DNA of 49,065 nt from Gammaproteobacteria bacterium (GTDB lineage: Bacteria > Pseudomonadota > Gammaproteobacteria > Ga0077536), in NCBI GenBank assembly GCA_019747795.1, contig JAIEQK010000261.1, positions 1 through 49,065 on the forward strand, read 5' to 3'. Position numbers and translations under genes: made by a program. Under the pieces are notes generated by a model, which saw only the letters and a list, made by a program, of their open reading frames with translations, made no database searches and had not been told where the DNA came from. Within the stretch, counting starts at the first letter, position 1, and every line of letters begins with the position of its first letter. This document shows positions 21,233 to 36,535 of this stretch, piece after piece.

Positions 21233-22990
21233 ATGATGAAAGCCACCATAAGAAACAGCCAATTGCCGCTGCGCAACGCCGACTTCGACACCCTGGTCGA
21301 AGCGCTCGAATATGCTGCCGAGGGCGAGGCGGGATACAACTTCTACGACGGCCGTGGTGAGTTGTTCGCGGTGCTGAGCTATCGCGAGTTGCGTGTCGAG
21401 GCGATGGCACTGGCCCGCCGCCTGCGCGGACTGGGCTGCAAACGTGGCGCACGCGTCGCCATAGTGGCGGAGACCGAACCGATGTTTCATCGGTTTTTCT
21501 TTGCCTGCCAGTATGCTGGCTACATCCCCGTGGCCCTGCCCGCCGGCTTCCAGCTCGGCGCGCGCAAGGCCTACGTCGAGCAGCTCGAACGCATGCTCGA
21601 CAGCTGCGGCGCCGACCTGGCCGTCGCCCCCGAATCCCACGTCGGTTTCCTGCGCCAGGCGGTCGAACGCCTGAACCTGGTCAAGGCCGGCACTCCCGAC
21701 GAATTCGATGCCCTGCCGGAAGCGGACTGCGTGCTCGAGCCGCTGCGCGCGGACGAGACGGCCTACCTGCAATACACCTCCGGCAGCACGCGCTTCCCGC
21801 GCGGCGTCGAGATCTCCCAGCACTGCGTGATGACCAACCTGCGGGATATCGCGGTGCATGGCCTCAAGATCACGCGTGAAGATCGCATGGTCGCCTGGCT
21901 GCCCCTGTACCACGACATGGGCCTGGTCGGCTTCGTCCTGCTGCCGCTGGGCAGCCAGCTGTCGGCGGATTACCTGAGCCCGCGCACCTTCGCCATGCGC
22001 CCGCGCCTGTGGCTCAAGGTCATCTCGCAGAACCGCGGCACCATCTCTTCCAGCCCGCCTTTCGGCTACGCGCTGTGCGCCAAGCGCCTGCGCCTGACCG
22101 ACCAGGACCGTTATGACCTGAGTTCCTGGCGCGTTGCCTGCGTCGGCGCGGAGCGCATCCATCCGGAGCCGCTGCGCCAGTTCGCCCATGTGCTGGCGCC
22201 CGCCAAGTTCGATCCCCGCGCCTTTGTCGCCTGCTACGGCATGGCGGAGTGCGCGCTCGCCATCAGCTTCGCCGATCTCGGCGCCGGCATCAGCGCGATC
22301 AAGGTCGACAAGGAAACCATGGCCACCACCGGTCGCGTGGAACCCCTGCCCGAGGGCGCCGACGAGCGCGCCGAGGACACGCTGACCTTCGTCGACTGCG
22401 GCGAGATCCTGCCCAGCTTCCAGATGGCCATTCGTGACGACGAAGGCCGCGACCTGCCCGACTACCAGTGTGGTCGCATCTGCCTCAAGGGGCCGAGCGT
22501 CATGTCGGGCTACTTCCAGAACCCGACCGCCACCGCCGAGGTCCTGTCCAAGGATGGCTGGCTCGACACCGGTGACATCGGCTACCGGGTTGGCACCCAC
22601 GTGGTGGTGACCGCGCGCCGCAAGGACGTGATCATCGTCAACGGCCGCAACATCTGGCCGCACGACCTCGAATACGTGGCCGAGAGCCTGCCCGGCGTGC
22701 GCTTCGGCAACGTCTCGGCCTTTTCCTTCGCCGACGACAGCGGCGCCGACCAGGTCGTGATGGTGGTCGAGTCGCGCGAAACCAATCCGGCCAAGATGCG
22801 CAGCCTGATCGACGAACTCAAGTCGCTGATCAACACGCACTTCGGCATCACCTGCCACATCGACCTGGTGCCGCCGCGAACCCTGCCGCGCACCTCCTCG
22901 GGCAAGCTCTCGCGTTCCAAGGCCAAGCAGGACTTCCTGGCCCGCGCGGAGGCGCCACAGGGCGCCAGCGCCCTGGGCGCCCACGGCTGA
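21233..22990 (+). CDS. Fatty acyl-AMP ligase / acyl-ACP synthetase, candidate sphingolipid enzyme
   Basis: The product is 585 residues of the ANL superfamily. The phosphate loop YTSGSTRFPRG starts at Tyr181; later come YGMAEC, a TGDIGY motif and the C-terminal RTSSGKLSR with the catalytic Lys. Overall it looks like a fatty acyl-AMP ligase, the type that transfers the acyl group to a carrier protein rather than to CoA. The ACP gene two genes downstream is the obvious acceptor. In Caulobacter an acyl-CoA synthetase-like gene of this kind is required for ceramide synthesis beside spt, acp and cerR, the same set as here. ATG at 21233 and 21236 are both possible; neither has a strong ribosome binding site. 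It is the first gene of its operon. Confidence 0.85.
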   Translation: MMKATIRNSQLPLRNADFDTLVEALEYAAEGEAGYNFYDGRGELFAVLSYRELRVEAMALARRLRGLGCKRGARVAIVAETEPMFHRFFFACQYAGYIPVALPAGFQLGARKAYVEQLERMLDSCGADLAVAPESHVGFLRQAVERLNLVKAGTPDEFDALPEADCVLEPLRADETAYLQYTSGSTRFPRGVEISQHCVMTNLRDIAVHGLKITREDRMVAWLPLYHDMGLVGFVLLPLGSQLSADYLSPRTFAMRPRLWLKVISQNRGTISSSPPFGYALCAKRLRLTDQDRYDLSSWRVACVGAERIHPEPLRQFAHVLAPAKFDPRAFVACYGMAECALAISFADLGAGISAIKVDKETMATTGRVEPLPEGADERAEDTLTFVDCGEILPSFQMAIRDDEGRDLPDYQCGRICLKGPSVMSGYFQNPTATAEVLSKDGWLDTGDIGYRVGTHVVVTARRKDVIIVNGRNIWPHDLEYVAESLPGVRFGNVSAFSFADDSGADQVVMVVESRETNPAKMRSLIDELKSLINTHFGITCHIDLVPPRTLPRTSSGKLSRSKAKQDFLARAEAPQGASALGAHG

Positions 22991-23003
22991 AGAAGCGCCC
23001 CTC

Positions 23004-23933
23004 CTGAAGCGACCCATCGCCCTGACCGGGGCCACCGGGTTCATCGGCCGCGAATTGCAGCGCCAGCTGCTCGCGGCCGGGCACCCGGTGCGGGCACTGC
23101 AACGACCCGGATCGCGCCGCGCCGACGCCCTGTTGCCGGGTGTCGAGCGCGTGGCGGTCGGACTGGACGATCCGCCCGCGCTGCAGGACGCCCTGCGCGG
23201 GGTCGACGCGGTCATCTCCTGCGCGGGCGCCGTGCGCGGCGCATGTCCCGCGGACTTCGGCCCGGCCAACGTGGCAGGCGTAGCGAATCTCGCCGCCGCC
23301 GCCGCCGCGCAGTCGGATCCGCCCTTCTTCCTGCACATTTCCTCGCTCGCCGCCACGCGCCCGACGCTGTCCGACTATGCCGGGAGCAAGGCCGCCGGCG
23401 AGGCGGTGCTGCGCGCGGTGCCGGGGTTGGCGTGGTGCATCCTGCGTCCGCCGGCGGTCTACGGGCCCGGCGACAAGGAACTCCTGCCGCTGTTTCGCGC
23501 GATGCGCTTCGGGCTCGCCGTGATCGTAGGTCCTGCGGAACAGCGGCTGTCACTGCTGCACGTCGAGGACCTGGCGCGCGCGGCGCTCGCGGTGCTCGAG
23601 CACCGTGATGCCTGCCGGGGCGGGGTGTTCGGCCTCGACGACGGCACGCCCGCCGGTCATGGCTGGCCGGCGATCGTCGCGGCGGGCCGCGGCCGGCTGC
23701 CGGTGCTGTCCCTGCACGTACCGCGCGTGCTGCTCGCGGCGCTCGGGCGCCTGAACCTCATGCTCGCGCGTGTCACCGGGCATGCACCCATGCTGACACC
23801 GGGCAAGGTCCGCGAGCTTTCGGAGCCCGAGTGGCTCTGCGATAATTCCGAGTTCCACGCCGCGACGGGCTGGCGCCCACGCGTGGCATTGCAGGTCGGC
23901 ATCGAACGCTTGTTCGCCGCACATTCCTCCTAA
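23004..23933 (+). CDS. cerR: CerR-like NAD(P)-dependent epimerase/reductase, apparent CTG start
   Basis: The product is about 309 residues, an extended SDR. From the proposed start it reads MKRPIALTGATGFIG, with the cofactor motif at 9-15, Ser113/Ser114 (HISS) and the catalytic Tyr125-x3-Lys129 (YAGSK). No ATG, GTG or TTG occurs in frame before the cofactor motif; the first TTG (23055) would delete that motif, so CTG at 23004, with AGAAG 8 bases upstream, is the best start. In bacterial ceramide synthesis CerR reduces the oxidised sphingoid-base or ceramide intermediate. Its place between an acyl-AMP ligase and ACP/spt supports that role. Function is inferred mainly from context, since this family is broad. 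Confidence 0.72.
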   Translation: MKRPIALTGATGFIGRELQRQLLAAGHPVRALQRPGSRRADALLPGVERVAVGLDDPPALQDALRGVDAVISCAGAVRGACPADFGPANVAGVANLAAAAAAQSDPPFFLHISSLAATRPTLSDYAGSKAAGEAVLRAVPGLAWCILRPPAVYGPGDKELLPLFRAMRFGLAVIVGPAEQRLSLLHVEDLARAALAVLEHRDACRGGVFGLDDGTPAGHGWPAIVAAGRGRLPVLSLHVPRVLLAALGRLNLMLARVTGHAPMLTPGKVRELSEPEWLCDNSEFHAATGWRPRVALQVGIERLFAAHSS

Positions 23934-23951: not shown

Positions 23952-24197
23952 GTGGGTACTGAACTGGCGGTCGAAGACCGGCTCATAGCCTTGCTCGGCA
24001 AGACCCTTGGACCGGACGCGGTCCTCTCACCCGCCACCAACCTGGTGGGTGATCTCGGCCTGGAATCGATCCAGGTGATCGAGTACCTGTGCGAGGTCGA
24101 GGACCATTTCGATCTCGCCATCGACGAGGCGACGCTCGCCGACGTACAAACCATAGGCGACCTGGCCGCCGTGATCCGCAAGCTCGGCAAGGACTAG
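23952..24197 (+). CDS. Dedicated acyl carrier protein (GTG start)
   Basis: The product is 81 residues. The phosphopantetheine site is Ser39 in LGLESIQVIEYL, with Glu-Ser-Ile instead of the usual Asp-Ser-Leu; the following helix is acidic, as expected for ACPs. It begins with GTG at 23952, 18 bases after the reductase gene, and ends 4 bases before spt, so it is in the same operon. This is unlikely to be the housekeeping AcpP (no fab genes nearby). It probably accepts the acyl chain from the ligase and presents it to the synthase. Confidence 0.9.
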   Translation: MGTELAVEDRLIALLGKTLGPDAVLSPATNLVGDLGLESIQVIEYLCEVEDHFDLAIDEATLADVQTIGDLAAVIRKLGKD

Positions 24198-24201
24198 ACC
24201 C

Positions 24202-25407
24202 ATGGCCCTGCTCGACAAGTTCGACGCCGCGCGACGCACGCGCGACACCCTCGCCGCGCTGCCGCTGAATCCCACCGACGTGGTGATCGAGGAGGTGCTC
24301 TCCGCCACCGAGGCCATGATCCAGGGGCGCCGCACCATCATGGCCGGTACCAACAACTACCTGGGCCTGACCTTCGACACCGGCGCCATCGCCGCCGGCC
24401 AGGCGGCGCTCGCGGCCAGCGGCACCGGCACCACCGGCTCGCGCATGGCGAACGGCACCTATCGCGATCATCTATTGCTCGAGCGCGAGATCGCGGCGTT
24501 CTTCGATCTGCCCTACGCGATGGTGTTCTCGACCGGCTATTCCGCCAACCTCGGTTCGCTGGCCGCGCTGCTCGCGCCCGGTGACGCCGTGTTGCTCGAT
24601 TCCGAGGCCCACGCCTCGCTGTTCGATGGCTGCCGGCTGTCCGGCGCCGACATCTTCCGCTTCAAGCACAACGACGCCGACAGTCTCGCCAGTCGGCTGC
24701 GTCGCCTGGGCGAGCGCGCAAGTTCCGCGCTGATCGTCGCCGAGGGGTTGTACAGCATTCGCGGCGACTGCGCGCCCCTGCGCGAGTTCGCGGCGGTCAA
24801 GCGCGAGTTCGGCGCCATCCTGTTCGTCGACGAGGCGCATTCGCTTGGCCTGTACGGCGATCATGGCCGCGGCCTGGTGGAGCAGGAGGGCGTGGCCGAG
24901 GACGTCGACTTCATCGTCGGCACCTTCAGCAAGAGCCTGGGGTCCATCGGCGGCTTCTGCGTCAGCGCGCGCGAAGAGCTGCCGCTGTTCCGCTACGCGA
25001 GCCGCCCCTACATCTTCACCGCCTCGCCCTGCCCGTCGGTGATCGCCACCACGCGGGTCGCGCTCGAACAGCTGCGGACGCGGCCGGAACTGCGCAAGAC
25101 CGTGTGGGACAACGCCCATCGGCTCTACGCCGCGCTGGCCGAACTCGGGCTCGAGCTCGGACCCGACGTCAGCCCGGTGATCGGCATTTCGCTCCGCGAG
25201 CGCGAAGTGGCGTTCGCCTGCTGGCAGGCGCTGTTCAACGCCGGGGTCTACACCAATCTCATTCTCCCACCCGCCGCGCCGGACGGCGGCAGCCTCATTC
25301 GCTGCAGCGTCACGGCGGCGCACACCCGCGCGCAGATCGACCAGATCGCCGCGGCTTTCGCCCAGGTCTGCCGGGATATCGGCGTCGGCCGGCACGCCGC
25401 CGCCTGA
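24202..25407 (+). CDS. spt: Serine palmitoyltransferase (alpha-oxoamine synthase)
   Basis: The product is 401 residues, a PLP enzyme of the alpha-oxoamine synthase family. The PLP lysine is Lys244 in GTFSKSLGSIGG; GTFSKS followed by SIGG is the form seen in serine palmitoyltransferases, whereas KBL and ALAS have GTLGKA or GTLAKA. Other landmarks are TGSRMANG, SEAHASLFDG (the His stacking on PLP) and FVDEAHSLG. It condenses L-serine with an acyl thioester to 3-ketosphinganine, the first committed step of sphingolipid synthesis. It is soluble, with no membrane helix, as in Sphingomonas. It starts 4 bases after the ACP gene, which suggests acyl-ACP as substrate. It converges on the flippase gene with 9 bases between. 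Confidence 0.88.
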   Translation: MALLDKFDAARRTRDTLAALPLNPTDVVIEEVLSATEAMIQGRRTIMAGTNNYLGLTFDTGAIAAGQAALAASGTGTTGSRMANGTYRDHLLLEREIAAFFDLPYAMVFSTGYSANLGSLAALLAPGDAVLLDSEAHASLFDGCRLSGADIFRFKHNDADSLASRLRRLGERASSALIVAEGLYSIRGDCAPLREFAAVKREFGAILFVDEAHSLGLYGDHGRGLVEQEGVAEDVDFIVGTFSKSLGSIGGFCVSAREELPLFRYASRPYIFTASPCPSVIATTRVALEQLRTRPELRKTVWDNAHRLYAALAELGLELGPDVSPVIGISLREREVAFACWQALFNAGVYTNLILPPAAPDGGSLIRCSVTAAHTRAQIDQIAAAFAQVCRDIGVGRHAAA

Positions 25408-25416: not shown

Positions 25417-26727
25417 TCAGTCCGCCAGGGCGCGGCGTACCGTCCAGGCCATGCCGGCGAGCGACGTGGCCCACAGCACCAGCGTCGCGATGCCGGGGGC
25501 GATGAGTCCGAGGCTCGGCGTCAGCAGCTGGAAGGTGGCGATGAACAGTACCGAGGCCAGCGCCTGGATGCCGAGCATCGCCTTCGCCACGCCGAGCGCG
25601 TAGCCGGCCGGGCGCAGCGGCGCCGCCGCGAGTTCGAGCGTGGCCGCGGCGATGAGCCAGGTGAGGACTGCCGACGCCGGGGCGAAGCTCGCGCCCACCG
25701 TCAAGGCCAGCAGCGTGTCACCCCACCAGGCCGACACCACCGCCAGCAGCAGCGCGGGCACACCCATCAGCGCCGCCATGCTCACCACCACGTGGCGAAA
25801 CGCGTGATCGCGACGGTGACGCAGGCGCGCGAGATCGGGATAGATCGCCTGGCGCACCAGCACCGCGGGCTTGGCCACCACGTTGGCGAACTCCCGCGCA
25901 ATTCGATACATGGCCGCGCCCTCGGCGCCGAGCAGCGCGCCGGCGTACAGCGTGCCCAGCGATTTCGGCACCATGTCGAGCGTCGCCTGCCAGTAGATGA
26001 CGTTCAAGAAGCTCCACAGGTCGGGATGCTCCTGGCCCATGCGCCGCAGTTCCAGCGGACCCCGCAGCCGCGACCAGGGCAGGCGCGCCGCCACTTCCCG
26101 CGCGCCGAACCACAGCACGCCCAGGTACTGCACGAGCTGGGAACTCGCCCACACCGCAGCGACGGTCTCGATGCTGGCATGGCCGCTCAGCACCAGGAGC
26201 CCCACCCCGAGCAGCCGCCACAGCCCGCTCGCCGCCTGCACGATGCTGATCGCGTCGAAGCGATCGAAGATGCGCAGCGCGCCGCTGGCGGTCGCGGTAC
26301 CGGAGAACAGCAGCACCGAGCAGTAGCCGACCGCGATGCGCGCGGTTTCGTCCGACCAGCCGAGCGGCTCCCGCGCCCACCATGCGATGGCGGTCGCGAG
26401 CAGCGTGCCGGACAGTGCGCTCAGGCAGTCGAGCGCGAGCGAGACGCGCAGCAGGCGTGCCAGCCCGTCGAGGTCGCGCTCCTCGTCCAGCGCCACGCCG
26501 TAGCGGACGATGGCCTCGAAGGGCTTCACGTTGCAGAACGCCCGCACCACCAGCATGTAGGCGCCGATCATCGCCACGGTGCCGAAGCCGTCCGGTCCCA
26601 ACGCGCGCGCGCTCAGCAAGGTCGACAGGAAGCCGAGCACGCCGCCCACGGCGCGGCCGCCGGCCAGCACCGCGAAGTTCTGCAGCACGCGCTTGAGCGC
26701 AGGCAGGGCGAGCGCGCGTTTCAGCAT
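25417..26727 (-). CDS. Polysaccharide/lipid flippase of the Wzx/MATE-like type
   Basis: The product is 436 residues with about 12 predicted membrane segments and almost no soluble domain. The N-terminal LQNFAVLAGGRAVGGVLGFLSTLLSARALGPDGFG resembles the start of oligosaccharide flippases and O-antigen export proteins. Such proteins move lipid-linked glycans or lipids across the inner membrane. ATG at 26727 shares its first base with the stop of the upstream gene (TGATG), so translation is coupled. It is the last gene of a three-gene operon with a CDP-alcohol phosphotransferase and a Tam41-like protein, and ends against spt. I infer transport of the lipid made by this locus; a general glycan role is also possible. 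Confidence 0.78.
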   Translation of the reverse strand: MLKRALALPALKRVLQNFAVLAGGRAVGGVLGFLSTLLSARALGPDGFGTVAMIGAYMLVVRAFCNVKPFEAIVRYGVALDEERDLDGLARLLRVSLALDCLSALSGTLLATAIAWWAREPLGWSDETARIAVGYCSVLLFSGTATASGALRIFDRFDAISIVQAASGLWRLLGVGLLVLSGHASIETVAAVWASSQLVQYLGVLWFGAREVAARLPWSRLRGPLELRRMGQEHPDLWSFLNVIYWQATLDMVPKSLGTLYAGALLGAEGAAMYRIAREFANVVAKPAVLVRQAIYPDLARLRHRRDHAFRHVVVSMAALMGVPALLLAVVSAWWGDTLLALTVGASFAPASAVLTWLIAAATLELAAAPLRPAGYALGVAKAMLGIQALASVLFIATFQLLTPSLGLIAPGIATLVLWATSLAGMAWTVRRALAD

Positions 26728-27635
26728 CAGCGAAAGCCACCGCGCCGGTACAGGCGCCACAGCGTGCCCCAGCCGAACAGCAGGGGGTGACGGCGCGCGC
26801 GCGGCGAGGGCACTTCGACCACGCCGGAATGCCGCGCCACCTTCCACACCACGTAGTCCAGCGGGTCGTTGAAGGTGAAAGCGGCCTTCAGCAGGCGCGC
26901 GATGGACAAGAGCTTGCCGAGCGCGCGGCGCGCGCGCCATTCGTGCTCGACCCTACGCCAGGCGAGCGCGGCGGGCGTGTGCCGCCAGCAACCATCGGGC
27001 AGCGCATCGAGGGCGAACTCGTGGGCCAGCGCGGCGAGATGGGCGTCGAGGGTCGAGGCATAGGCCTGGTACAGGCGCGCCGCCGCGTCGCGATCCTCCG
27101 AACGCAGTTCCGCGCCGTAGCTGCGGCCGAAGGCGGTGGTCCACAACTCGGCGGCGGAGAAGTTCTCGGGCAGCAGCGGCAGGCTCGCACGCAGCATGCG
27201 CCGCGCCGCGCATCGGCCGAGACCCGCGACGCGCGCGCGGACGGCCTCGTCGCGCGCCATCAGCACCATGTAGGGCTGAGCGAAGCGCGCCCAGAAATAG
27301 GAATGGAAGTCGTGGTCGAGCGCGCGCTCGAAGGCGTCCAGCGTCAGCGTCGCGTACTTCGCCGCCTGGCGCGCGGCGCCGTCGCCCACCGTGACGAAGT
27401 AGACGTTGGGCGGCAACAGGCGATTCGCGAATCCCGCGATTCCCGGCAGCGCGCGGTAGTCATCCAGCAGCACGTAGAAGTCGAGCACCGTGTCGCGCTT
27501 GCCGCGCAGGTAGGAGCCGTAGGCGAGCACCGCCAGCAGGTGCGCGCCGAAGCGCTGCTCGAACTGCCGCGTGAAGGCGGCGAGCAGCGGATCTTCGTCA
27601 GGCGTGGCGGCGCTCGCGTCGTCGGCCTCAGCCAT
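26727..27635 (-). CDS. Tam41-like CTP:phosphatidate (or lipid-phosphate) cytidylyltransferase
   Basis: The product is 302 residues. The N-terminal nucleotidyltransferase motif is AYGS (38-41) with LDFYVLLDD (51-59), followed by LPPNVYFVTV, a KYATLTL block and ELWTTAFGRSYGAELRSED. In order and spacing these match mitochondrial Tam41/Mmp37 CDP-diacylglycerol synthase (AYGS, IDF..VDD, GVYFNP, KYGVIS, a second acidic block). I therefore propose that it activates a lipid phosphate with CTP. It sits between a CDP-alcohol phosphotransferase and a flippase, overlapping both, and opposite spt, so ceramide 1-phosphate is a possible substrate as well as phosphatidate. ATG at 27635 overlaps the upstream gene by 8 bases. 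Assignment is from remembered motifs only. Confidence 0.6.
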   Translation of the reverse strand: MAEADDASAATPDEDPLLAAFTRQFEQRFGAHLLAVLAYGSYLRGKRDTVLDFYVLLDDYRALPGIAGFANRLLPPNVYFVTVGDGAARQAAKYATLTLDAFERALDHDFHSYFWARFAQPYMVLMARDEAVRARVAGLGRCAARRMLRASLPLLPENFSAAELWTTAFGRSYGAELRSEDRDAAARLYQAYASTLDAHLAALAHEFALDALPDGCWRHTPAALAWRRVEHEWRARRALGKLLSIARLLKAAFTFNDPLDYVVWKVARHSGVVEVPSPRARRHPLLFGWGTLWRLYRRGGFR

Positions 27636-28809
27636 ACGCACCGCGCGTGCCGGCGAAGGTGCGATAGGCGCGCGCGTGGTTCGCGGCGGCGGCGGGATCG
27701 TTGAGCCAGGACTGCAGCGGTCCGTGACGCAGCCGCTCACTGCACGCGTACATGAGCCGCAGCGCCATCAGCGCGCTGCTGCCGGCGGTCCACCAGGCCA
27801 CGCCGTAGAGCGCCCAGTCGGCGCGTCCGCAGGCGAGCGCGACGCTCATGATGACGAGGCAGGGATTGCGCCGCGCGGTCACCAGGCGGAAGTAGGCATC
27901 GAACGGGCGCCAGGCGAACAGGCTGCAGTCGCCGAGCGAATGGAACAACCCCTCCAGGGCGCGGCCCGCGAGGTAACCGCCGACGATGAGCCAGACCATG
28001 AGGCTGTGGGTGGCGGGCGAGAGGGCGTCGCCCAGGCCCTCGGCCCACAGCACGTACCAGATGGGCGGATGGATGATGTCCATGCCATGGTCGAGCCAGT
28101 GACCGAGACGGCTGGACTGCACCGTGACCCGCGCGAGCTTGCCGTCCACGGTGTCCAGCAGGGTCATGATCCAGCCGCACACCAGGCCCGGCAGCCAGGC
28201 GCCGACGGCGAACAGCCAGCCGGCCGCGATCACCAGCGCCAGCCCGGTCAGGGTCACCATGTTGGGCGTGATGCCGAGGCTCGCGCACCACCCGACCACG
28301 GTGCGCGCCGGCCGCGGCCACACGAACTTGGTGACGAGATCGGTGATGCCCTTGTAGGCGTTGCCGTACAGCACGCTCTCCAGCGCCTGGCGCCGCTCCG
28401 CGCCCATGGGCTCGAGCAGCGGCGGCTCGACGCGGCGGAGCGCCCGGTCGAACTGTTCGAGTTCGGCCGGGCGCAGCACGGGGGCGGCCGGTCGCGGCGC
28501 CTGTGGGTCGCTCATCGCCGCGGCGAACTCGGCCGCGCGCGGCCCGCCGCACACGGCACCCGCGAGGCCGCCGTCGGTCGGGCATTCGAGCAGCGCCTCC
28601 TGCTGGCGGCGCAGCGCGCTCACGGTGCGCTGCTCGAAGAGATAGCCGGCATGGACGAGGAGCACCTGTTCGGCGCTCGCCGCGAGGCCGATGTCGTCGA
28701 CGATGTCGTGGATCCCCACGGCGCGCAGCTGGCGCGCCAGGCGTTCGCGGGAACTGAGTCCCCAGAGGCGCAGCGGGTGGTCGCCGACGATGTAGGCAAG
28801 GATGGCCAT
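27628..28809 (-). CDS. CDP-alcohol phosphotransferase with N-terminal NTP-transferase-like domain
   Basis: The product is 393 residues. The C-terminal part (about 150-370) is a membrane CDP-alcohol phosphotransferase with every catalytic residue of D-x2-DG-x2-AR-x8-G-x3-D-x3-D: Asp219, Asp222, Gly223, Ala226, Arg227, Gly236, Asp240 and Asp244. These enzymes join a CDP-activated group to an alcohol or lipid. The first ~110 residues are soluble; LRLWGLSSRERLARQLRAVG resembles a fragment of a sugar-phosphate nucleotidyltransferase fold, as in bifunctional inositol-phosphate enzymes, but lacks its signature. It begins a three-gene operon. Neighbours suggest attachment of a head group to ceramide or another lipid. 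Confidence 0.85.
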   Translation of the reverse strand: MAILAYIVGDHPLRLWGLSSRERLARQLRAVGIHDIVDDIGLAASAEQVLLVHAGYLFEQRTVSALRRQQEALLECPTDGGLAGAVCGGPRAAEFAAAMSDPQAPRPAAPVLRPAELEQFDRALRRVEPPLLEPMGAERRQALESVLYGNAYKGITDLVTKFVWPRPARTVVGWCASLGITPNMVTLTGLALVIAAGWLFAVGAWLPGLVCGWIMTLLDTVDGKLARVTVQSSRLGHWLDHGMDIIHPPIWYVLWAEGLGDALSPATHSLMVWLIVGGYLAGRALEGLFHSLGDCSLFAWRPFDAYFRLVTARRNPCLVIMSVALACGRADWALYGVAWWTAGSSALMALRLMYACSERLRHGPLQSWLNDPAAAANHARAYRTFAGTRGAYG

Positions 28810-28887: not shown

Positions 28888-29769
28888 GTGACGGTCCGCC
28901 TGCTGCATCTCACCGACCCTCACCTAAGCTCGCTGGCCGGCGTGTCGCTCTGGTCGTTGCGCGGCAAGCGGCGCCTGGGCTACCTCTCGTGGTGGCGCAA
29001 GCGCCGGCACCAGTTGAACGCCGCGACGCTCGCGCGCGTCACCGCCGCCGCCTGCGACGACGCGCCGGATCTCGCGCTGGTCACCGGTGACCTCGTGCAC
29101 ATCGGACTCCCAGCGGAACTCGCCGAAGCGCGGCGCTGGCTGGACGGTCTCGCAGCCCGCGTGCCCGTGGTGCTGGCGCCCGGCAATCACGATTGCTACC
29201 GCGCCGACACGGCGGCCGGCATCGGCGCGGCCTGGCAACCTTTCCTCTCCGACGCGACCGCGACCCCGCAAGGCTTTCCGCGCCTGGTGACGCGGGACGA
29301 GGTCACCGTCATCGCGCTGTCCTCGGCCGAACCGCGGCCCTGGTGGTCGGCCGGCGGCCGCCTGGGCGACGCGCAGCGCGAAGCGCTCGATCGACTGCTG
29401 ACGGCGTCCACTGGCCGCTTCCGCTGCGTGATGCTCCATCACGCGCCGCTGCCCGGCCAGGCGCCGGGCCGCAAGGCGCTGGACGATGCGGGCGAACTCG
29501 CCTCGCTCCTGGAACGCCACGGCGTTGAACTGGTGCTGCACGGTCATCTGCATCACAACGACGAACGTCACCTCGGCAGTCGCACGCGGGTGTTCGTCAG
29601 CGCGCCTGCCTCGAGCTGTTCGCGCGGCAATCCCGCGGCCTATCGCCTGTTCGACATCAGCCGCGAAGATGGTGAGTGGCAAGTCCACGCCACCTTGAAG
29701 GCGGAGGCGCAGGGCGTCATGCGCACCGTGGAGGCGCACAGCTGGCGCCTGCCCGTGCTGACCGCCTGA
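28888..29769 (+). CDS. Calcineurin-like metallophosphoesterase
   Basis: The product is 293 residues and cytosolic, with all metal motifs of the calcineurin-like phosphoesterases: DPH near residue 10, VTGD, GNHD, LHH and GHLHH. Family members cleave phosphomonoesters, phosphodiesters or pyrophosphates, including UDP- and CDP-linked lipids; the substrate here is unknown. It starts with GTG at 28888, with little Shine-Dalgarno. It diverges from the CDP-alcohol phosphotransferase operon through a shared promoter region, so a role in head-group metabolism is plausible. It converges on lptG, 3 bases from its stop. Confidence 0.88.
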   Translation: MTVRLLHLTDPHLSSLAGVSLWSLRGKRRLGYLSWWRKRRHQLNAATLARVTAAACDDAPDLALVTGDLVHIGLPAELAEARRWLDGLAARVPVVLAPGNHDCYRADTAAGIGAAWQPFLSDATATPQGFPRLVTRDEVTVIALSSAEPRPWWSAGGRLGDAQREALDRLLTASTGRFRCVMLHHAPLPGQAPGRKALDDAGELASLLERHGVELVLHGHLHHNDERHLGSRTRVFVSAPASSCSRGNPAAYRLFDISREDGEWQVHATLKAEAQGVMRTVEAHSWRLPVLTA

Positions 29770-29772: not shown

Positions 29773-30843
29773 TCACCTCGCGCGCCTGATCGCCAGCACC
29801 GCGACCAGCAGCAGCAGCGCCGAGGGCGCGAGCGCGGTCGGCGCTGGCGGCAGGTCGAGCAAGGTGGCGAGGTGACTCGTGATCTGGTTGAAGAGATAGA
29901 AGCCGACGCCGGCCACGCCGCCGGCCACCACCCGCGTGCCGGGCGTGCGGCTGCGCGTCCCGGCCAGCACGAAGGGCAGGCCGAGCAGGGTCATGGCGAG
30001 CAGCGCGCCCGGCAGGGCGAGCTGCTGCCAGAACATCGCCTGGTACTCGCGCGTGTCCACCCCCGAACCGCGCATCTCGCGAATGTAGGCGTAGAGGTCG
30101 AACACCGACAGCGCGTGCGCCGGCGCGATCAGGGTGGCGAGCTGCTCGGGCGTGAGAAAGCTCTGCCACTCGAGCGTCGCCATGCGTCGATGGGCGACCG
30201 AGTCGTCGCCCAGCACGCGCTCGTCCACGTCGTGCAGCAGCCAGGTGCGCGCGTCAACGATGTCGGCCTTGTCCGCCTGCAGCAGGCGCTGCAGGCGCCC
30301 GCGCACGCCGAGTTCGTAGATCTCTATCTCGCGCGGGATGCGTCCGAAATCCACGCCGCCGACGCGCAGGAAGCGGTTGTCGCTGCGGCTCCAGAATTCC
30401 GCGCCGCCGATGGCGGTCTGCGGCAGGGTCTTGGAGCGGTACTCCTGCGCGTGGCGCTCGACCAGCGGCACCACCGTCGCGCGCGCGGCCATGGCGAGCA
30501 CGATCAAGGCCACGGTCGCGACCAGCAGGCCGCGCGCGATGCGCCAGGGCGAGAGGCCCGCGGCGCGCAGCGCCAGCAGTTCGCCGTGATTGGCCAGTGT
30601 GCCCAAGCCGAGCACCGAACCCAGCAGGGTCGTCACCGGCAGCAGGTCGATGATGCGCGTGGGCGTGGTCAGGATCACCACCGCGATGGCGTCGATGGTG
30701 GTGAAGCTGCCGACACCCACATCGTCCAGTTCCTCGGTGAGGGACATGAAGCCGAACAGCGCGAGCAACAGCGCAAGTACCACCACCGCGGACTTGCAGA
30801 AGTGCAGCAGGACGTAGCGATCGATCAGCGTGAGGCGAGGCAC
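29773..30843 (-). CDS. lptG: LptG-type permease of a lipid A/LPS export ABC complex
   Basis: The product is 356 residues of the LptF/LptG (YjgP/YjgQ) family. Hydrophobic helices at both ends (IDRYVLLHFCKSAVVVLALL early; a Leu/Ala-rich pair late) flank a periplasmic beta-jellyroll domain (about 130-260), the normal topology. With LptF and the ATPase LptB it extracts lipopolysaccharide from the inner membrane. GTG at 30843 is the only start giving a full first helix; it overlaps lptF by 19 bases. No pepA is adjacent, and the pair lies within the sphingolipid island, so a paralogue serving another anionic lipid is possible. Confidence 0.88.
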   Translation of the reverse strand: MPRLTLIDRYVLLHFCKSAVVVLALLLALFGFMSLTEELDDVGVGSFTTIDAIAVVILTTPTRIIDLLPVTTLLGSVLGLGTLANHGELLALRAAGLSPWRIARGLLVATVALIVLAMAARATVVPLVERHAQEYRSKTLPQTAIGGAEFWSRSDNRFLRVGGVDFGRIPREIEIYELGVRGRLQRLLQADKADIVDARTWLLHDVDERVLGDDSVAHRRMATLEWQSFLTPEQLATLIAPAHALSVFDLYAYIREMRGSGVDTREYQAMFWQQLALPGALLAMTLLGLPFVLAGTRSRTPGTRVVAGGVAGVGFYLFNQITSHLATLLDLPPAPTALAPSALLLLVAVLAIRRAR

Positions 30844-31907
30844 GGCGCGGCCCACGCGAGGCGGCGAAAGGGCGTGGCGCGCCACAGCACGAGCAGTGCC
30901 GCGGCGAGCAGGGCCGGCACCCACCAGATACTGGGCGCGAGTTGGTGCTCGACCCAGGTACGGCCGACGCCCAGCAGGTTGTAGTACACCGCGTAGACCG
31001 CGAGCGCGATCGGCAGCCGCGCGTAGCGGCCCTGGCGCGGTCGGGTCTCGGCCAGCGCAAGCGCGGTGAGCGCCAGGAGGGCCGTCGAGATCGGCGTCGA
31101 CAGCCGCCACTGCAGCTCGGCGCGGTCGTCGGGCGCGTCGGACAGCAGCAGCGCGGCGGTCGGTTCGGACTTGGTGCGGTACTCGCGGGTCAGGATGCGC
31201 GCGGCCTTGATTGACAACGTCAGGGTGTCGAAATTGCCGTAGAAGTCCGAGCCGCCGGCGATGTTCTTGTAGATGCTCGCCTCGGACAGCGTGAGGCTGT
31301 GGCGATCGCGCGTGGTGAAGGGCTCGAGCTTGCCGCTCGGCGCGGACACCACCACCACACCGTCGCCGCGCCGCTCGCGGATGAACACGCCGCGCAGTCC
31401 GCGGCCGTCGCGATCGATGTGCTCGACGTACACCGCGCGATCGTTGTTGTCGTAGAGATAGAAGCGATGGGCCTTGATGCGATCGAGTTCCGAGGACGCG
31501 TCGGCTTGCGCCTTCAGCTGGAACATCGCAGAGTAGACCCACGGCCGCACGGTGAAGGAGAACGCGCCGATCGCGACCGCGAGCAGCAGGCTGGCCATGA
31601 ACAGCGGCCGCTGCAGACGCAGCCTGCCGTAGCCGCAGGCCTGCATGGCGGTCAGTTCGGCGTGGCTGTTCAGGCGGCTGAAGCCGACGATGAGCCCGAA
31701 GTAGAGGCCGAGCGGCAGCAGCACTTCCAGCGCGATGATCGACTTGTAGAGCGTCAGGCGCGCGACCTCGTCGGCGCGCAGCAGACCGCCGGCGGCATCG
31801 GTCAGGAAGCGGGTCAGGCTGTAGGCCAGGAACACCACGGTGAGCGCGGCCGCCACGGCGGCGAAGCTCGCGCCGATTTCACGCAGAAGGTAGCGATCGA
31901 GCAGCAC
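30825..31907 (-). CDS. lptF: LptF-type permease of a lipid A/LPS export ABC complex
   Basis: The product is 360 residues of the LptF/LptG family. MLLDRYLLREIGASF is a standard LptF N-terminus, and LNSHAELTAMQACGYG matches the conserved cytoplasmic coupling helix contacting LptB. The periplasmic domain (about 130-250) includes the VFIRERR region. GTG at 31907 is the start. It pairs with LptG, overlapping it by 19 bases. It is divergent from an LptA-like gene, an arrangement unlike the usual one, where lptFG face pepA and lptA is with lptC/lptB. Confidence 0.9.
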   Translation of the reverse strand: MLLDRYLLREIGASFAAVAAALTVVFLAYSLTRFLTDAAGGLLRADEVARLTLYKSIIALEVLLPLGLYFGLIVGFSRLNSHAELTAMQACGYGRLRLQRPLFMASLLLAVAIGAFSFTVRPWVYSAMFQLKAQADASSELDRIKAHRFYLYDNNDRAVYVEHIDRDGRGLRGVFIRERRGDGVVVVSAPSGKLEPFTTRDRHSLTLSEASIYKNIAGGSDFYGNFDTLTLSIKAARILTREYRTKSEPTAALLLSDAPDDRAELQWRLSTPISTALLALTALALAETRPRQGRYARLPIALAVYAVYYNLLGVGRTWVEHQLAPSIWWVPALLAAALLVLWRATPFRRLAWAAPCLASR

Positions 31908-31908: not shown

Positions 31909-32469
31909 ATGTTCGAACCGGTGAACCAGCAGGGCGGACCAGCCGGCTATGATGCGGAGCGCTTCGAGCACGCGCAACCGCTGGCGTGGCTTCTCCTGTG
32001 CGTGAGCCTGGGCGCGGGCGCGGCCGAGACCGCGAACAAGCGCGGTGACGATTACCGCGAGACCATCATCGCCCGCGCGCACGAGGCCTGGGAGTCGCCC
32101 GACGGCGGCACCATGTTCATTCGCGGCAACCTGGAACTGCGCGGCACGCGCTGGCGCATCCAGGCCGATGCCGCGCGCATCGAGGGCAAGCTCGGCAAGC
32201 CCGACACCGTGGTGGTGGACGGCACGCCGGCGCGTCTGGTCGTGACTCCGGAAGACGATTCGCAACCCTTCGAAGGCCACAGTCGTCATCTCGAATTCAG
32301 GCCGCAGGCCAAGACCGTCAGGCTCGAGGGCGCGGCGACCATCGTCAAGGGCCAGCAGTCGATCACCAGTGAATCGATTCGCTACGAGCTCGACAGTCGC
32401 ACGCTGGCGGCGGGCGCGCGTGGGCGGGTGAAGGTGGTGACGTCGCTACCGTCGAAGTCGCGGGACTGA
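31909..32469 (+). CDS. lptA: LptA-like periplasmic bridge protein, probable frameshift in signal peptide
   Basis: The open frame gives 186 residues. The mature part (about 40-180) aligns in order with LptA/OstA: TMFIRGNLELRGTRWRIQAD, VVVDGTPARLVV, PFEGHSRHLEF, VRLEGAATIVKGQQSITSES. Its N-terminus from ATG 31909 is odd, lacking a charged n-region. In another frame, ATG at 31949 or 31952 reads MMRSASSTRNRWRGF; inserting one base near 31990-31996 would join this to LLLCVSLGAGAAE and make a perfect signal peptide. I suspect a one-base deletion, either genuine or a sequence error. With LptF/LptG next door it would carry lipid across the periplasm. It converges on the HIT gene. Confidence 0.75.
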   Translation: MFEPVNQQGGPAGYDAERFEHAQPLAWLLLCVSLGAGAAETANKRGDDYRETIIARAHEAWESPDGGTMFIRGNLELRGTRWRIQADAARIEGKLGKPDTVVVDGTPARLVVTPEDDSQPFEGHSRHLEFRPQAKTVRLEGAATIVKGQQSITSESIRYELDSRTLAAGARGRVKVVTSLPSKSRD

Positions 32470-32487: not shown

Positions 32488-32922
32488 TCAGCGCCGCGGC
32501 CAGTGCTTGAGCAGCTGTTCGCGAATGCGCGCGTTGCGCGCGTCGTCGGTGGGATTCACCTGGTCGAGACGGGGCGGTCCGGGCCAGGCGGCGTCGGTGA
32601 AGGCCTGGCCTTCGAACGCGCGCATGCTGCCGTAGCGCGGCAGCACGTGGTAGTGCACGTCCGCGTCGACCATCATCAGCATCAGGTAGTTGATCTTCTC
32701 GTGGGCGAACGCCGCGGCGAGGGTCTGTTCGATGTCGGCGGCGACCTGCACCAGCTCCGCGCCCGCTGCCGGCGACACCGCGCCGAAGCTCGTGACGTTC
32801 TCCTTGCAGGCCAGCACCAGCGCGCCGAGCGTGACCTGCTGCGGACGCAGCAGCACCGCCCAGTATTCGTAGTCCGCGACCAGCGAGCCGGGATAGCCGA
32901 ACTTGCGCATGGTCGGGTTCAT
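32488..32922 (-). CDS. HIT-family hydrolase/transferase
   Basis: The product is 144 residues. The HIT motif reads DVHYHVLPR near residue 90: the nucleophilic and following His are present, but the first His of the usual HxHxH is Asp. HIT proteins cleave or transfer nucleotidyl groups, such as AMP-lysine, Ap4A or sugar-1-phosphate UMP. It starts 9 bases after the cytidylyltransferase gene and is the last gene of a five-gene minus-strand operon, so it may act on the CDP- or NDP-activated product. It converges on the LptA-like gene with 18 bases between. Substrate unknown. Confidence 0.8.
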   Translation of the reverse strand: MNPTMRKFGYPGSLVADYEYWAVLLRPQQVTLGALVLACKENVTSFGAVSPAAGAELVQVAADIEQTLAAAFAHEKINYLMLMMVDADVHYHVLPRYGSMRAFEGQAFTDAAWPGPPRLDQVNPTDDARNARIREQLLKHWPRR

Positions 32923-32931: not shown

Positions 32932-33684
32932 TCAGCCCGCCGCGCTGACGCCGCGCGCCGGGTACCAGGCCGACACCACGCGCTCGGCGCGCTCGAGGTC
33001 GGCGCGGTCGTCGATCTCGCACCAGGACAGGCCGTCTATCGGACAGGTCGCGACCAGGCCGTCGTCGGCCAGCTTGTCGACCGCCGCGAGGTACCACTGC
33101 TTGAGCCCAGTGCCGTAGCGCATCATGTGGTCGAGCTGCGCGGTGAAGCGCGCGCCGCCCTCGCGTCGGAAACACATCATGCCGATGGACTCGCCGTTCA
33201 CGGCGGCAGTGTCGAGCTTCTTGCCCACCCGCCGCAGCCGCCCGTCGCGCACGACGACCTTCATGTCGTCATCGTCGTAGGCGGGCTTGCTGTCGGTCAC
33301 CAGCGTCACCGCCGCGCCCACGTCGGTCGCCAGCAGCCGCTGCATGATGGCGGCCTCGAACAGCGTGTCGCCGTTGACGATGATGAAGTCGCCCTGCATC
33401 TCGTGGCGGGCAATCCAGCAGGTGCCGAGGTTGTCGCACTGGGCGAAGAACGGGTTGTAGAGCGTGCGTACCCGCACCTCGGTCTGACGGCGCGCGATGT
33501 CGTCGATGACGTCGGCGGCGAAGCCCGTGACCACCACCACTTCATCGACCGCGCACTGTGCGATCTCGTTCAGCTGCCACTCGAGCACCGAGCGATCGAG
33601 CACGGCGATGGCCGACTTGGGTTTGTCCGCGGTCAGCGGCAGGAGCCGCCGACCCTGGCCGGCGCTCAGGATGATCGCTTTCAT
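32932..33684 (-). CDS. LicC-like NTP transferase (phosphocholine/alcohol-phosphate cytidylyltransferase type)
   Basis: The product is 250 residues with one nucleotidyltransferase domain. The signature GQGRRLLPLTADKPKS (9-24) and IIVNGDTLF are those of the sugar-1-phosphate nucleotidyltransferase superfamily. YNPFFAQCDNLGTCW and the GESIGMMCF and CEIDDRADL segments are typical of LicC-type cytidylyltransferases, which make CDP-choline and similar CDP-alcohols. It would supply an activated head group for the CDP-alcohol phosphotransferase 5 kb away; this pairing is inferred. Its start lies 97 bases from the hydroxylase stop, and the HIT gene follows closely. CTP use cannot be proven from sequence. 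Confidence 0.8.
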   Translation of the reverse strand: MKAIILSAGQGRRLLPLTADKPKSAIAVLDRSVLEWQLNEIAQCAVDEVVVVTGFAADVIDDIARRQTEVRVRTLYNPFFAQCDNLGTCWIARHEMQGDFIIVNGDTLFEAAIMQRLLATDVGAAVTLVTDSKPAYDDDDMKVVVRDGRLRRVGKKLDTAAVNGESIGMMCFRREGGARFTAQLDHMMRYGTGLKQWYLAAVDKLADDGLVATCPIDGLSWCEIDDRADLERAERVVSAWYPARGVSAAG

Positions 33685-33781: not shown

Positions 33782-34558
33782 TCAGGGGCCGCGTCGGCGC
33801 GCCGCGACGGCGCGGTTCCACTCGGCAAGGTTCTTGAGCGGATCCTTGACGTAATGGGTGGCCTGCATCAGCTTCAGCACGAACTGGTTGAACAGCGTGC
33901 CGACCCGGTCCATCGGCCGGTCGATGTCGATGAACAGCACCGCGCGGTACTCGTCCGTGCCGTTCAGCACCTCGTGCTCGTAGGTGTCGTCGAACAGCAT
34001 CAGCTCGCCCTCGCGCCAGTTGAGGATCTCCTGGTCGACGCGGATCCAGCACTTCTGCCAGTCGCGCGGCACGCGCAGCCCCATGTGGCAGCGCACCAGC
34101 GCGCGGGTCGGGCCCTTGTGCGCCGGAATGTGATAGCCAGGCGCGAGGATCGAGAACCAGGCGTTCAGCAGGCCGGGCAGGCTGGCGAGCAGGGCGGCGG
34201 TCTCGGGGCAGGCCCGGCAGTTGTCCGCCACCGGCTGGCCGAAGATGTAGAGCGCGTAGGTCTTCCAGTTCGTGCCCTGGGAGATGCGCGCCTGGTCCGG
34301 GGAGATCTGGTGAAAGGCGGGGATGTCCTCGGGATGCTGCCACACCCGGTCGAACTCGGCGCGCACCTGCGGAAAGCCCGCCGCGAGCCGCGGCAGCCAG
34401 TCGAAGGTCTCGTTGGCCAGCACCGGCGTGGCGGGGATCAGTGAGTGCCGCCCCTGGAAATCGGTCACCGCGCGCAGGAAGCGCTTGCCCAGGCGATGCA
34501 CCAGGGCGCGCTGCCAGCCGCCCTTGCCGACCCGCGTCGCGGCCATCTCTTCAGCCAT
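33782..34558 (-). CDS. Aspartyl/asparaginyl beta-hydroxylase family dioxygenase (LpxO-like)
   Basis: The product is 258 residues, Fe(II)/2-oxoglutarate dependent. The two iron-binding His are visible at about 147 (IPAHKGPTR) and 195 (DDTYEHEVLN), and the Arg of GPTRALVRCH is in the 2-oxoglutarate region. Related bacterial LpxO enzymes add a 2-hydroxyl to fatty acyl chains of lipid A. Ceramides of many bacteria carry 2-hydroxy fatty acids, so in this operon, next to a ceramide-synthase-like gene, the acyl chain of a sphingolipid is a plausible target. ATG at 34558 overlaps the upstream gene by 8 bases. Confidence 0.82.
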   Translation of the reverse strand: MAEEMAATRVGKGGWQRALVHRLGKRFLRAVTDFQGRHSLIPATPVLANETFDWLPRLAAGFPQVRAEFDRVWQHPEDIPAFHQISPDQARISQGTNWKTYALYIFGQPVADNCRACPETAALLASLPGLLNAWFSILAPGYHIPAHKGPTRALVRCHMGLRVPRDWQKCWIRVDQEILNWREGELMLFDDTYEHEVLNGTDEYRAVLFIDIDRPMDRVGTLFNQFVLKLMQATHYVKDPLKNLAEWNRAVAARRRGP

Positions 34559-35393
34559 GCTTGAGTACCTCTTCGGCGAGCGCGAGGTCCGCGCTCGAAT
34601 CCACGTCCACCGCCGCGCGCGCGCTGTCCAGGCTCACGTGGGCGACCTCGCAGCCGGCGCGCGCGGACAGGTGCGCGAGCGCGGTGGCGAGCCGCATGCT
34701 GCGGGTCAGGTAGCGCGCCAGGAAGCCGAGCCCGATGCGGCTCGCCATGCGCCAGGGGCGCTTGCGATCCGCCTCCAGCCGTCGCCAGAACTCGAGCGCG
34801 GCGCGACCCGCGTGGGTGCGCAGCAGGAACAGGTTGGCGCCGCAGAAGGCGCCGTCGGCGAAGCGCAGCAGGGTGCGGCGTGTGTAGGGAAAGCGCGCAT
34901 GCACCGTCGGCCACGGCACGAGGCCGACGACGAAGTCGGCGCGGCTCGCGAGCGCGGCGCCGACGAAGCGGTCGATGATGCCGGCGTCGAGCAGCGCGTG
35001 ATCCGCCGCGGTCAGCAGCACCGGGTAGTGATGCAGCGCGGCGCTGGCGCGCAGCGCGCTGGCCGAGGGACCCGCGTCCGGCGCCAGCCAGCGGAAGTCG
35101 CCGGACGCGAGCAAGGCCTGGAACACCGGCTCGCCGTGGGCGATGGCTTCATCCGGCCCGACCAGCAGGCCGCCGTCGATCGTGCGGCTCGCGCGCAGGG
35201 CGTGCAGCACGCGGGTCACGCAGGGCGTGCCCGCCACCGGTACAAGCACGCTGGACGGCAGGCCATGCGCGCGCGCCAGCGCGTTGCCCCCTGAGCGTTC
35301 GCCGGCCAGCACGATGGCCGGCAGGCGCACGCGATCCCGGCTGTGGGCCGCATCGGCGATCCAACTTTCGGTCGCGCGCCGGCTGTCGTTCAC
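34551..35393 (-). CDS. NTP-transferase-like protein (MobA/GlmU fold)
   Basis: The product is 280 residues. LPAIVLAGERSGGNALARAHGLPSS resembles the nucleotide-binding LAGGxGxR...K loop of MobA-like NTP transferases, in a looser form. VLLTAADHALLDAGIIDRFV matches the D-H/N metal-binding strand of that fold. A C-terminal Arg-rich segment with LDSARAAVDVDSSADLALAEEVL closes as in molybdenum-cofactor-type nucleotidyltransferases. Start is GTG at 35393, overlapping the ceramide-synthase-like stop as GTGA; it overlaps the hydroxylase gene by 8 bases. The substrate is unknown; a role in activating a head-group precursor is inferred from context only. Confidence 0.68.
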   Translation of the reverse strand: MNDSRRATESWIADAAHSRDRVRLPAIVLAGERSGGNALARAHGLPSSVLVPVAGTPCVTRVLHALRASRTIDGGLLVGPDEAIAHGEPVFQALLASGDFRWLAPDAGPSASALRASAALHHYPVLLTAADHALLDAGIIDRFVGAALASRADFVVGLVPWPTVHARFPYTRRTLLRFADGAFCGANLFLLRTHAGRAALEFWRRLEADRKRPWRMASRIGLGFLARYLTRSMRLATALAHLSARAGCEVAHVSLDSARAAVDVDSSADLALAEEVLKHG

Positions 35394-36535
35394 GCGAGCG
35401 CTTTCTCGTAGACCCGGTAATGCTTGGACTGGCGCCCGCCGAGGATCTCGATGATGCCCTTCATCGCCTCGTTGGTTTCCAGGATCCAGGACATCTCGAC
35501 TTCTTCCACGCCCTTGCGAATGCCGGGCTCGCGCAGCGCCTGCACCACCGACAGTGCGAGGCCGGGACCGAGCCGGGTGTGATGCAGGCGGCGACGCACG
35601 CCCATCAGCGGAATGCGCGCCGTGCGCGGGTAGCCGATGAAGAGCCGCGAGACGAGCTTGGCCCAGCCGAAGGGCAGCAGGCGGCCGTCGAGATCGGCGA
35701 TGGCGTCGTTGACGTTCGGCAGCAGCACGATGAACGCCACGCCTTCGCCGTCCATCTCCGCGATCTGGATGAAGTCCGGCGGGATGATCATCAGCATCTC
35801 GTGGCCGATGGCGCGGAATTCCTCCTGGGTGAAGGGTACGAAGCCCCAGTTGTCGGCCCAGGCGTCATTGAAGATGTCGCACACGAGATCCAGGTCCGCA
35901 TCCTTGCGACGCTTGTCCAGCGCGCGGATGGTGACCTTGCGTTGCAAGCGTTCGAACAGCGAGTTCATCACCGGCGGCGGCTGGAAGTGCGCGCTGATCA
36001 GGTAGGCGAACATGTCCATCGCCTTGGTATAGCCGCAGGCCTCGACCCGCGGCCCGTACCAGGGCCGCGCGTGACCCATCATGAAATAGGGACGCGAGTC
36101 GAAGCCGTCGACCAGGAGACCAACCTCCTGGTTGATGTTGAGGCTGAAGGGCCCGCGCGCCTGGCGCATGCCGCGCGCGCGGAGCCAGGCCTCGGCCTGT
36201 TCGAACAGCGCCGCGAACACGGTCGGATCGTCGATGGCGTCGAGAAAGCCGAAGAAACCGGTCTGGTCGCGATGACATTCCAGATGCAGCCTGTCGACCT
36301 GCGCGCTGATGCGGCCCACCGCGTGTCCGTCGCGATAGGCGACGAAGCCCTGCCACTCGAGGTGCTTGAACACCGGGTGACCCGCCTTCAGCGCGTCGCG
36401 CCGTTCCATGGTGAGTGGAGGCACCCAGTTGGGGTCGTCGGCGAACACGCTGCGCGGCACGGCGATGAACTCGTCCAGCGAACGGCCGTCGGTCACCGGG
36501 ATCACGGAAAGGCTGGCGAAGCCGGGTGCGGTCAT
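35390..36535 (-). CDS. bcerS: BcerS/YghO-like N-acyltransferase, candidate bacterial ceramide synthase
   Basis: The product is 381 residues of the GNAT-fold YghO/BcerS-like family. Typical blocks are DDPNWVPPLTMERRDAL, VGRISAQVDRLHLECH, TGFFGFLDAIDD, RGPFSLNINQEVGLLVDGFD, and near the C-terminus EVEMSWILETNEAMKGIIE with YRVYEKAL. The Caulobacter member (bCerS) N-acylates the sphingoid base to give ceramide. Other members are uncharacterised, so the role rests on the co-occurrence with spt, acp, cerR and an acyl-AMP ligase in this window. It is first in its operon. ATG at 36535 was chosen; the frame is open to 36613 but that extension lacks family features. Confidence 0.7.
   Translation of the reverse strand: MTAPGFASLSVIPVTDGRSLDEFIAVPRSVFADDPNWVPPLTMERRDALKAGHPVFKHLEWQGFVAYRDGHAVGRISAQVDRLHLECHRDQTGFFGFLDAIDDPTVFAALFEQAEAWLRARGMRQARGPFSLNINQEVGLLVDGFDSRPYFMMGHARPWYGPRVEACGYTKAMDMFAYLISAHFQPPPVMNSLFERLQRKVTIRALDKRRKDADLDLVCDIFNDAWADNWGFVPFTQEEFRAIGHEMLMIIPPDFIQIAEMDGEGVAFIVLLPNVNDAIADLDGRLLPFGWAKLVSRLFIGYPRTARIPLMGVRRRLHHTRLGPGLALSVVQALREPGIRKGVEEVEMSWILETNEAMKGIIEILGGRQSKHYRVYEKALA

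Follow-up and report, generated by a model that had tools for sequence, protein, structure and literature searches.

A Caulobacter-type sphingolipid island without the ceramide kinase CpgB, and DgkA as a candidate replacement

How could a ceramide-phosphoglycerate locus work without the kinase that phosphorylates ceramide? The question is raised by a contig of 49,065 bases (JAIEQK010000261.1), called the window here and analysed as a whole, which belongs to a 5.94 Mb gammaproteobacterial genome that is 99% complete. Sixteen genes between positions 21233 and 36535 (15.3 kb), in which ceramide, head-group, hydroxylation and Lpt-type export functions are interleaved, very probably encode a sphingolipid pathway of the Caulobacter class. 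What is new here is the absence of CpgB from an otherwise known type of locus. We propose that the membrane diacylglycerol kinase DgkA, encoded outside the island, serves as the ceramide kinase by non-orthologous replacement, and put the probability of this at about one half. More tentative is the joint reading, which adds to this replacement a changed loop in CpgC and an Asp/Arg-hydroxylase-family enzyme that stands in for the DesA-type hydroxylase.

Neither island nor genome contains CpgB

In Caulobacter, ceramide is phosphorylated by CpgB (PMC10331486). CpgB was not found in the island, and the genome gave zero matches to the DAGK_cat kinase family; the same search succeeded on 13 of 14 controls, among them Caulobacter. 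Five other loci (L024, L142, L148, L149 and L122, loci being labelled L and genomes G) have CpgB exactly between cpgC and cpgA; in the window cpgC comes straight after cpgA. The CpgB profile separated members (at least 94 bits) from other matches (at most 48 bits), and all members exceeded 220 bits except L125, L163 and the fragment L083. An apparent fusion of CpgB to a nucleoside triphosphate (NTP) transferase in L145 and L116 was rejected as a long open frame overlapping its neighbour in another frame.

The absence extends through the family of the window (f1), for which all 36 genomes returned were searched for DAGK_cat and DgkA. Outside genus g10, none of the 15 island-bearing genomes has a DAGK_cat match, and all 15 keep CpgC and carry DgkA. 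Within g10 the state is reversed, with CpgB in 4/4 genomes and DgkA in 0/4 (this kinase count takes in G069, which the Spt results do not cover). The other 17 genomes of the family have DAGK_cat in 0/17 and DgkA in 10/17; nine of these 17 were tested for serine palmitoyltransferase (Spt), and none reached the cut-off.

CpgC is retained and predicted to need a lipid phosphate

Tam41 is the cytidine diphosphate (CDP)-diacylglycerol synthase of mitochondria and some bacteria, and its substrates are a lipid phosphate and cytidine triphosphate (CTP). The structure model of the window CpgC (mean predicted local distance difference test score, pLDDT, 82.6; residues 1–45 unreliable) matches Tam41 entry 7ecd with a Z score of 18.5 over 228 residues at a root-mean-square deviation of 3.1, the next family reaching Z 9.9, and Foldseek pairs the model with 6ig4 at 2.2e-07. 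On the Pfam profile Tam41_Mmp37 the protein scores 18.3 bits, under the cut-off of 24, and a viral fold search with the model returned weak nucleotidyltransferase matches only (best 3.5e-04). It scores 416 bits on the CpgC alignment profile, of which the window row is itself a part, and shares 35% identity with the neighbour of the kinase in a Pseudomonas plasmid cluster. Because the model has the Tam41 fold, CpgC probably needs a lipid phosphate and would use ceramide-1-phosphate, a substrate that would require a kinase. A CDP-diacylglycerol synthase domain has been noted for Caulobacter CC_1161, and CpgC and CpgB act at the same stage of the pathway there (PMC11324152).

Could CpgC instead have changed its chemistry, acting on ceramide itself and making the kinase dispensable? 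In all 19 sequences of the window-type clade, the loop at the GS..D active-site motif is two residues shorter (consensus RG--KRDT; QHDA in G024), and none of the 25 other listed sequences is so short. We nevertheless regard such a change as unlikely, since the model has the fold of an enzyme that acts on a lipid phosphate and the short loop may be a mere clade marker. Moreover, G318, G020 and G301, which lack CpgB but stand apart from this clade, have the motif in its usual form, for which reason the loop was also rejected as a strict indicator that the kinase has been lost.

Slightly less probable still is a pathway with no kinase step, in which the CpgA-like enzyme would move phosphoglycerate from CDP-glycerate straight onto ceramide. 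CDP-alcohol phosphotransferase chemistry allows such direct transfer, as choline and ethanolamine phosphotransferases perform it with diacylglycerol, and CpgA- and CpgD-like genes are both present in the window island. This bypass is argued against by G027 (90% complete) and G024 (62% complete), two members of the window family that keep CpgC without CpgB; in both, CpgA was not found genome-wide and CpgD was not found in the island. It also fits poorly with Caulobacter, where, of the ceramide-phosphoglycerate lipids CPG and CPG2, only the latter requires the CpgA gene (PMC11324152).

The reduced islands of G024 and G027 (L159 and L158), in which CpgA and CpgD are lacking, suggest two modules, a first of CpgC and the CC_1153-like protein and a second of CpgA and CpgD. 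This division sits badly with Caulobacter, where CPG is still produced when CC_1153 is mutated (PMC11324152).

DgkA as the candidate ceramide kinase

The argument for DgkA combines the absence of CpgB and the predicted need for a lipid kinase, both described above, with the distribution of DgkA and the laboratory use of such an enzyme on ceramide. The window gene, which adjoins lexA, is the sole PF01219 match in the genome (Table 1).

First, DgkA is commoner in the genomes without CpgB. In a survey of 369 genomes of the class, Spt was matched at E 1e-120 in 23, and in 21 the match exceeded the cut-off. Together with the Spt loci found before this survey, there are 42 CpgC-bearing genomes whose CpgB state is resolved; among them DgkA is present in 21/22 that lack CpgB and in 8/20 that carry it (Fisher p 1.3e-4, a value that ignores relatedness). 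This count excludes G390, which has DgkA and whose contig breaks off after cpgC, just where cpgB would be expected, as well as the genome of L018 and five genomes in which CpgC was not found: G015 with CpgB and DgkA, G211 and G321 with DgkA and no CpgB, and G165 and G281 with neither. The kinase has thus been lost in DgkA-bearing lineages, with G011 as the one exception and in only about three losses.

Second, the window protein belongs to the same family as the E. coli enzyme of the ceramide assay, a diacylglycerol kinase that we take to be DgkA. The five catalytic residues of DgkA, under the numbering that we assume, are invariant in 20/20 aligned rows, with or without an island. In that laboratory assay, ceramide is quantified through its phosphorylation by E. 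coli diacylglycerol kinase in the presence of ATP (PMC3779446); the role of the window DgkA would instead be a physiological one.

Several observations weigh against this replacement. The Spt tree gives three changes of CpgB and eight of DgkA, and an independent-pairs test yields 2–3 pairs (median p 1), a number too small to settle the matter in either direction. CpgB-less G011, a 2.4 Mb record, has no DgkA match. DgkA serves other functions as well and often occurs in relatives without an island, and its alignment reveals no island-specific change. The dgkA gene also stands beside lexA in the island-free genomes G030 and G045; this neighbourhood is ancestral in the family, and the closeness of dgkA to the island was accordingly discarded as evidence. 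Nor does loss of the kinase always leave a clean gap, because among 20 genomes with both genes CpgB adjoins cpgC in only 14, the two lying farther apart on the same contig in four (G032, G038, G175 and G257) and on different contigs in two. Finally, four of the 22 CpgB-less genomes encode a DAGK_cat protein of another group than CpgB, with a strong match in G013, G014 and G301 and a weak one, still above the cut-off, in G010; any of these proteins could act as the kinase there.

These last proteins, carried by a few CpgB-less genomes outside f1, also lend something to the idea that an unrecognised kinase, inside or outside the island, makes ceramide-1-phosphate, as do the HIT-like and CC_1153-like genes, which are island genes without an assigned step. 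We hold this to be improbable: a Pfam search at E 0.001 assigned none of the 16 island proteins to a kinase family, and the 15 island-bearing genomes of f1 outside g10 lack any DAGK_cat protein and have DgkA. Least likely of all is that the island is just one more copy of the known CPG locus, its missing kinase meaning only a simpler or different ceramide lipid, since, widely as gene content and order differ among the islands compared, CpgC is kept in every CpgB-less island-bearing genome of f1 and was not found in the island-free genomes G030, G031 and G064.

With DgkA as the kinase, the island product would be an anionic phosphosphingolipid of the CPG/CPG2 type. By homology with Caulobacter, where these steps have been demonstrated, AasR would load a fatty acid on AcpR, Spt would condense it with serine, and BcerS and CerR would complete dihydroceramide. 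DgkA would then phosphorylate ceramide to ceramide-1-phosphate, which the Tam41-fold CpgC would activate with CTP; CpgD, whose chemistry is established for Caulobacter, would make CDP-glycerate, and CpgA would add a phosphoglycerate. The Asp/Arg-hydroxylase-family enzyme may hydroxylate the N-acyl chain, and LptF2/LptG2, the LptA-like protein and the flippase would export the lipid. The original prediction had proposed a complete pathway from serine to exported lipid; the build, decorate and export set is near-complete, lacking CpgB.

In Caulobacter, sphingolipids can stand in for lipopolysaccharide and set polymyxin sensitivity (PMC11324152, PMC12275187). A lineage that keeps most of the pathway without the characterised bacterial ceramide kinase shows which step is exchangeable, and provides a natural test of CpgC function. 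If DgkA is the replacement, a classic diacylglycerol kinase gains a physiological role in sphingolipid synthesis, beyond a side activity in laboratory assays. The locus also names a candidate for a second type of ceramide hydroxylase.

Gene content and layout of the island

As originally predicted, the five ceramide families all lie within 15 kb, located by family models and cluster identities, and are interleaved with head-group, hydroxylation and export genes: a CDP-alcohol phosphotransferase, two NTP transferases, a hydroxylase, LptF, LptG, an LptA-like protein and a flippase-like protein (Table 1). The two operons envisaged there simplify a layout of one plus-strand run (21233–25407), three minus-strand runs (36535 to 32488; lptF–lptG, 31907 to 29773; and 28809 to 25417) and two single plus-strand genes, for the metallophosphoesterase and the LptA-like protein. 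Overlaps of a few bases suggest coupling of neighbouring genes: the flippase start meets the CpgC stop at 26727, and the CpgC start at about 27635 overlaps the phosphotransferase stop at 27628, the starts of the flippase and CpgC frames being inferred choices among open reading frames.

Table 1. Genes of the island and dgkA, with window coordinates and supporting matches
Feature	Position	Strand	Evidence
DgkA, membrane diacylglycerol kinase	17424..17795 (outside island)	-	PF01219 2.2e-30; PDB diacylglycerol kinase 1.2e-31
AasR, specialised fatty acyl-AMP/acyl-AcpR ligase	21233..22990	+	NF006624 748 bits, cut-off 600; 45% identical to E. coli cluster ligase
CerR, short-chain dehydrogenase/reductase (SDR)-type reductase	23004..23933 (start approximate)	+	PF01370; 38% identical to E. 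coli cluster epimerase
AcpR, specialised acyl carrier protein (ACP)	23952..24197	+	PF00550; 46% over 48 residues to E. coli cluster ACP
Spt, serine palmitoyltransferase	24202..25407	+	NF047599 577 bits, cut-off 500; 56% identical to E. coli spt
Flippase-like membrane protein, candidate CC_1166 analogue	25417..26727 (start inferred)	-	PF01943 weak, under cut-off
CpgC-like Tam41-fold nucleotidyltransferase	26727..27635 (start inferred)	-	CpgC alignment; structure model
CpgA-like CDP-alcohol phosphotransferase, extra N-terminal domain	27628..28809	-	PF01066
Metallophosphoesterase (CC_1158-like)	28888..29769	+	PF00149
LptG-like second-copy permease	29773..30900 (start approximate)	-	PF03739 216 bits
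LptF-like second-copy permease	30825..31907	-	PF03739 211 bits
LptA/OstA-like bridge protein	31909..32469	+	PF03968 36.8 bits, cut-off 20.4
HIT-like protein	32488..32922 (start uncertain)	-	PF01230 20.6 bits, just under cut-off 21.5
CpgD-like CTP:phosphoglycerate cytidylyltransferase candidate	32932..33684	-	PF00483; 45% to plasmid cluster cytidylyltransferase
Asp/Arg-hydroxylase-family lipid hydroxylase	33782..34558	-	PF05118 3.5e-48; closest NCBIfam OlsC, under cut-off
CC_1153-like NTP transferase	34551..35393	-	PF12804; 40% to plasmid cluster nucleotidyltransferase
BcerS/YghO-like ceramide N-acyltransferase	35390..36535	-	48% identical to E. coli YghO, 373 residues

The grouping of the five families is not a chance one, because the core gene order recurs across Spt loci. 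In the window the AcpR gene directly precedes spt, with AasR and CerR close by; among 24 Spt loci of named genomes, 16 have the order AasR–CerR–AcpR–Spt, four have CerR–AcpR–Spt with the contig ending before AasR, two have AasR–CerR–Spt without a detected AcpR (the alphaproteobacterial L018 and L019) and two lack the core order (the spirochaete L020 and L021). The BcerS/YghO gene lies on the strand opposite to the core run and so forms a separate predicted transcription unit.

The identity of the synthase is clear from its family scores: against 577 bits as Spt, it reaches 308 bits as bioF and 254–291 bits as glycine C-acetyltransferase (KBL), all under the cut-offs of those models, and a KBL or BioF identity was therefore rejected; a separate BioF-like match lies elsewhere in the genome. 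Its best PDB match is the serine palmitoyltransferase 2x8u (4.5e-117), and its ten best solved relatives all carry that title. At E 0.001 the acyltransferase has no match among Pfam and NCBIfam families; by its identity to YghO it falls in the BcerS/YghO group, again as predicted. The CerR frame contains no ATG, GTG or TTG before 23055, and since its SDR motif begins upstream of that codon, a CTG at 23004 is the probable start.

Among the head-group genes, the CpgA-like protein has the residues DG..AR...G...D...D, invariant in 14/14 sequences, and N85-x-x-T88 of the CpgD-like protein shows the same spacing as the published CpgD positions N90 and T93, in a comparison of positions rather than an alignment (PMC13228409). 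The island lptF and lptG are a second set, because four PF03739 matches occur genome-wide and two of them fall within the island. The flippase-like protein is 24% identical to a gene of the E. coli spt cluster annotated for lipopolysaccharide biosynthesis, and the HIT-like gene recurs in islands such as L017, L024, L142, L146 and L153.

The hydroxylase stays under the cut-offs of both equivalog models, with 199 of 450 bits for OlsC and 115 of 500 for LpxO. Besides the window, 14 genomes have a protein of its family, PF05118, in their islands, 12 of them in the window-type clade and two (G386 and G333) in other families. The Pseudomonas plasmid cluster has one too, and none was seen in most other islands compared. 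Given this recurrence, and a ceramide hydroxylase in Caulobacter that is of the DesA type (CC_0202; PMC11324152), hydroxylation of the ceramide N-acyl chain is the likely predicted role of the PF05118 enzyme.

The gammaproteobacterial host was correctly anticipated: Spt of L001, from a record titled Gammaproteobacteria, is 87% identical to that of the window, and its genome (G001) shares DgkA places with G023, a genome of the window genus. L002, titled as a Klebsiella pneumoniae metagenome-assembled genome, likewise has an 87% identical Spt and a DgkA place as in G022 of the window genus, and is for these reasons probably a mislabelled bin. Upstream of the island, the run of genes for an EAL-type protein and a Ser/Thr kinase, then dgkA, lexA, imuA and imuB (12040–20817), is common to island-free relatives, G030 and G045 among them. 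The island follows imuB in L004, L005 and L008 as in the window, and imuB was not seen in the examined flanks of L010 and L013, which suggests that the island moved as one unit.

Comparison with known sphingolipid loci

The original prediction did not recognise the layout; judged by its gene families, it represents a version of the Caulobacter-type locus already described in the literature. Among the open-licence papers listed in literature searches, none came up that describes a CPG locus without CpgB or a role for DgkA in one.

One of the loci compared is the spt–yghO cluster of E. coli PCN033 (L227, 3436–16406), which shares with the window the five ceramide genes, lptF and lptG copies and a flippase-like gene, whereas none of the 13 cluster proteins examined matches CpgA, CpgC, CpgD, the CpgB model or the hydroxylase. 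This cluster also holds a YtfJ-family gene, two hypothetical genes and yghS/yghT. DNA resembling the window spt occurs in 4026 of 5426 E. coli genomes.

Another is a cluster on plasmid pBYT5-2 of Pseudomonas sp. BYT-5 (NZ_CP097491.1), in which 13 of the 16 window genes are matched at 25–55% identity: AasR, CerR, AcpR, Spt, BcerS, the CC_1153-like protein, LptF, LptG, CpgC, the metallophosphoesterase, the hydroxylase, CpgA (41%) and CpgD. The window HIT, LptA-like and flippase proteins are unmatched among the 15 cluster proteins compared. Directly before cpgC, the plasmid has a CpgB-type kinase (243 bits to the CpgB model), whereas the window has none. The plasmid, typed as conjugative, carries the whole ceramide-phosphoglycerate cluster with kinase and hydroxylase (L228, 9569–27163). 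The window BcerS is matched by 44 plasmid records.

The reference system is the ceramide di-phosphoglycerate locus of Caulobacter crescentus (CC_1152–CC_1168, with cpgA–D), and orthologues of most of its parts are reported in Azotobacter vinelandii, Pseudomonas luteola and Nitrosomonas eutropha (PMC11324152). Matched by family, published description and other clusters rather than by sequence alignment, the Caulobacter locus and the window share the five ceramide genes, the CpgA, CpgC, CpgD, CC_1153 and CC_1158 types, a second LptF/LptG pair and a flippase. They differ in CpgB, absent from the window island and genome, and in the hydroxylase, whose Asp/Arg-hydroxylase-family gene lies inside the window island, whereas CC_0202 of Caulobacter is unlinked to its locus.

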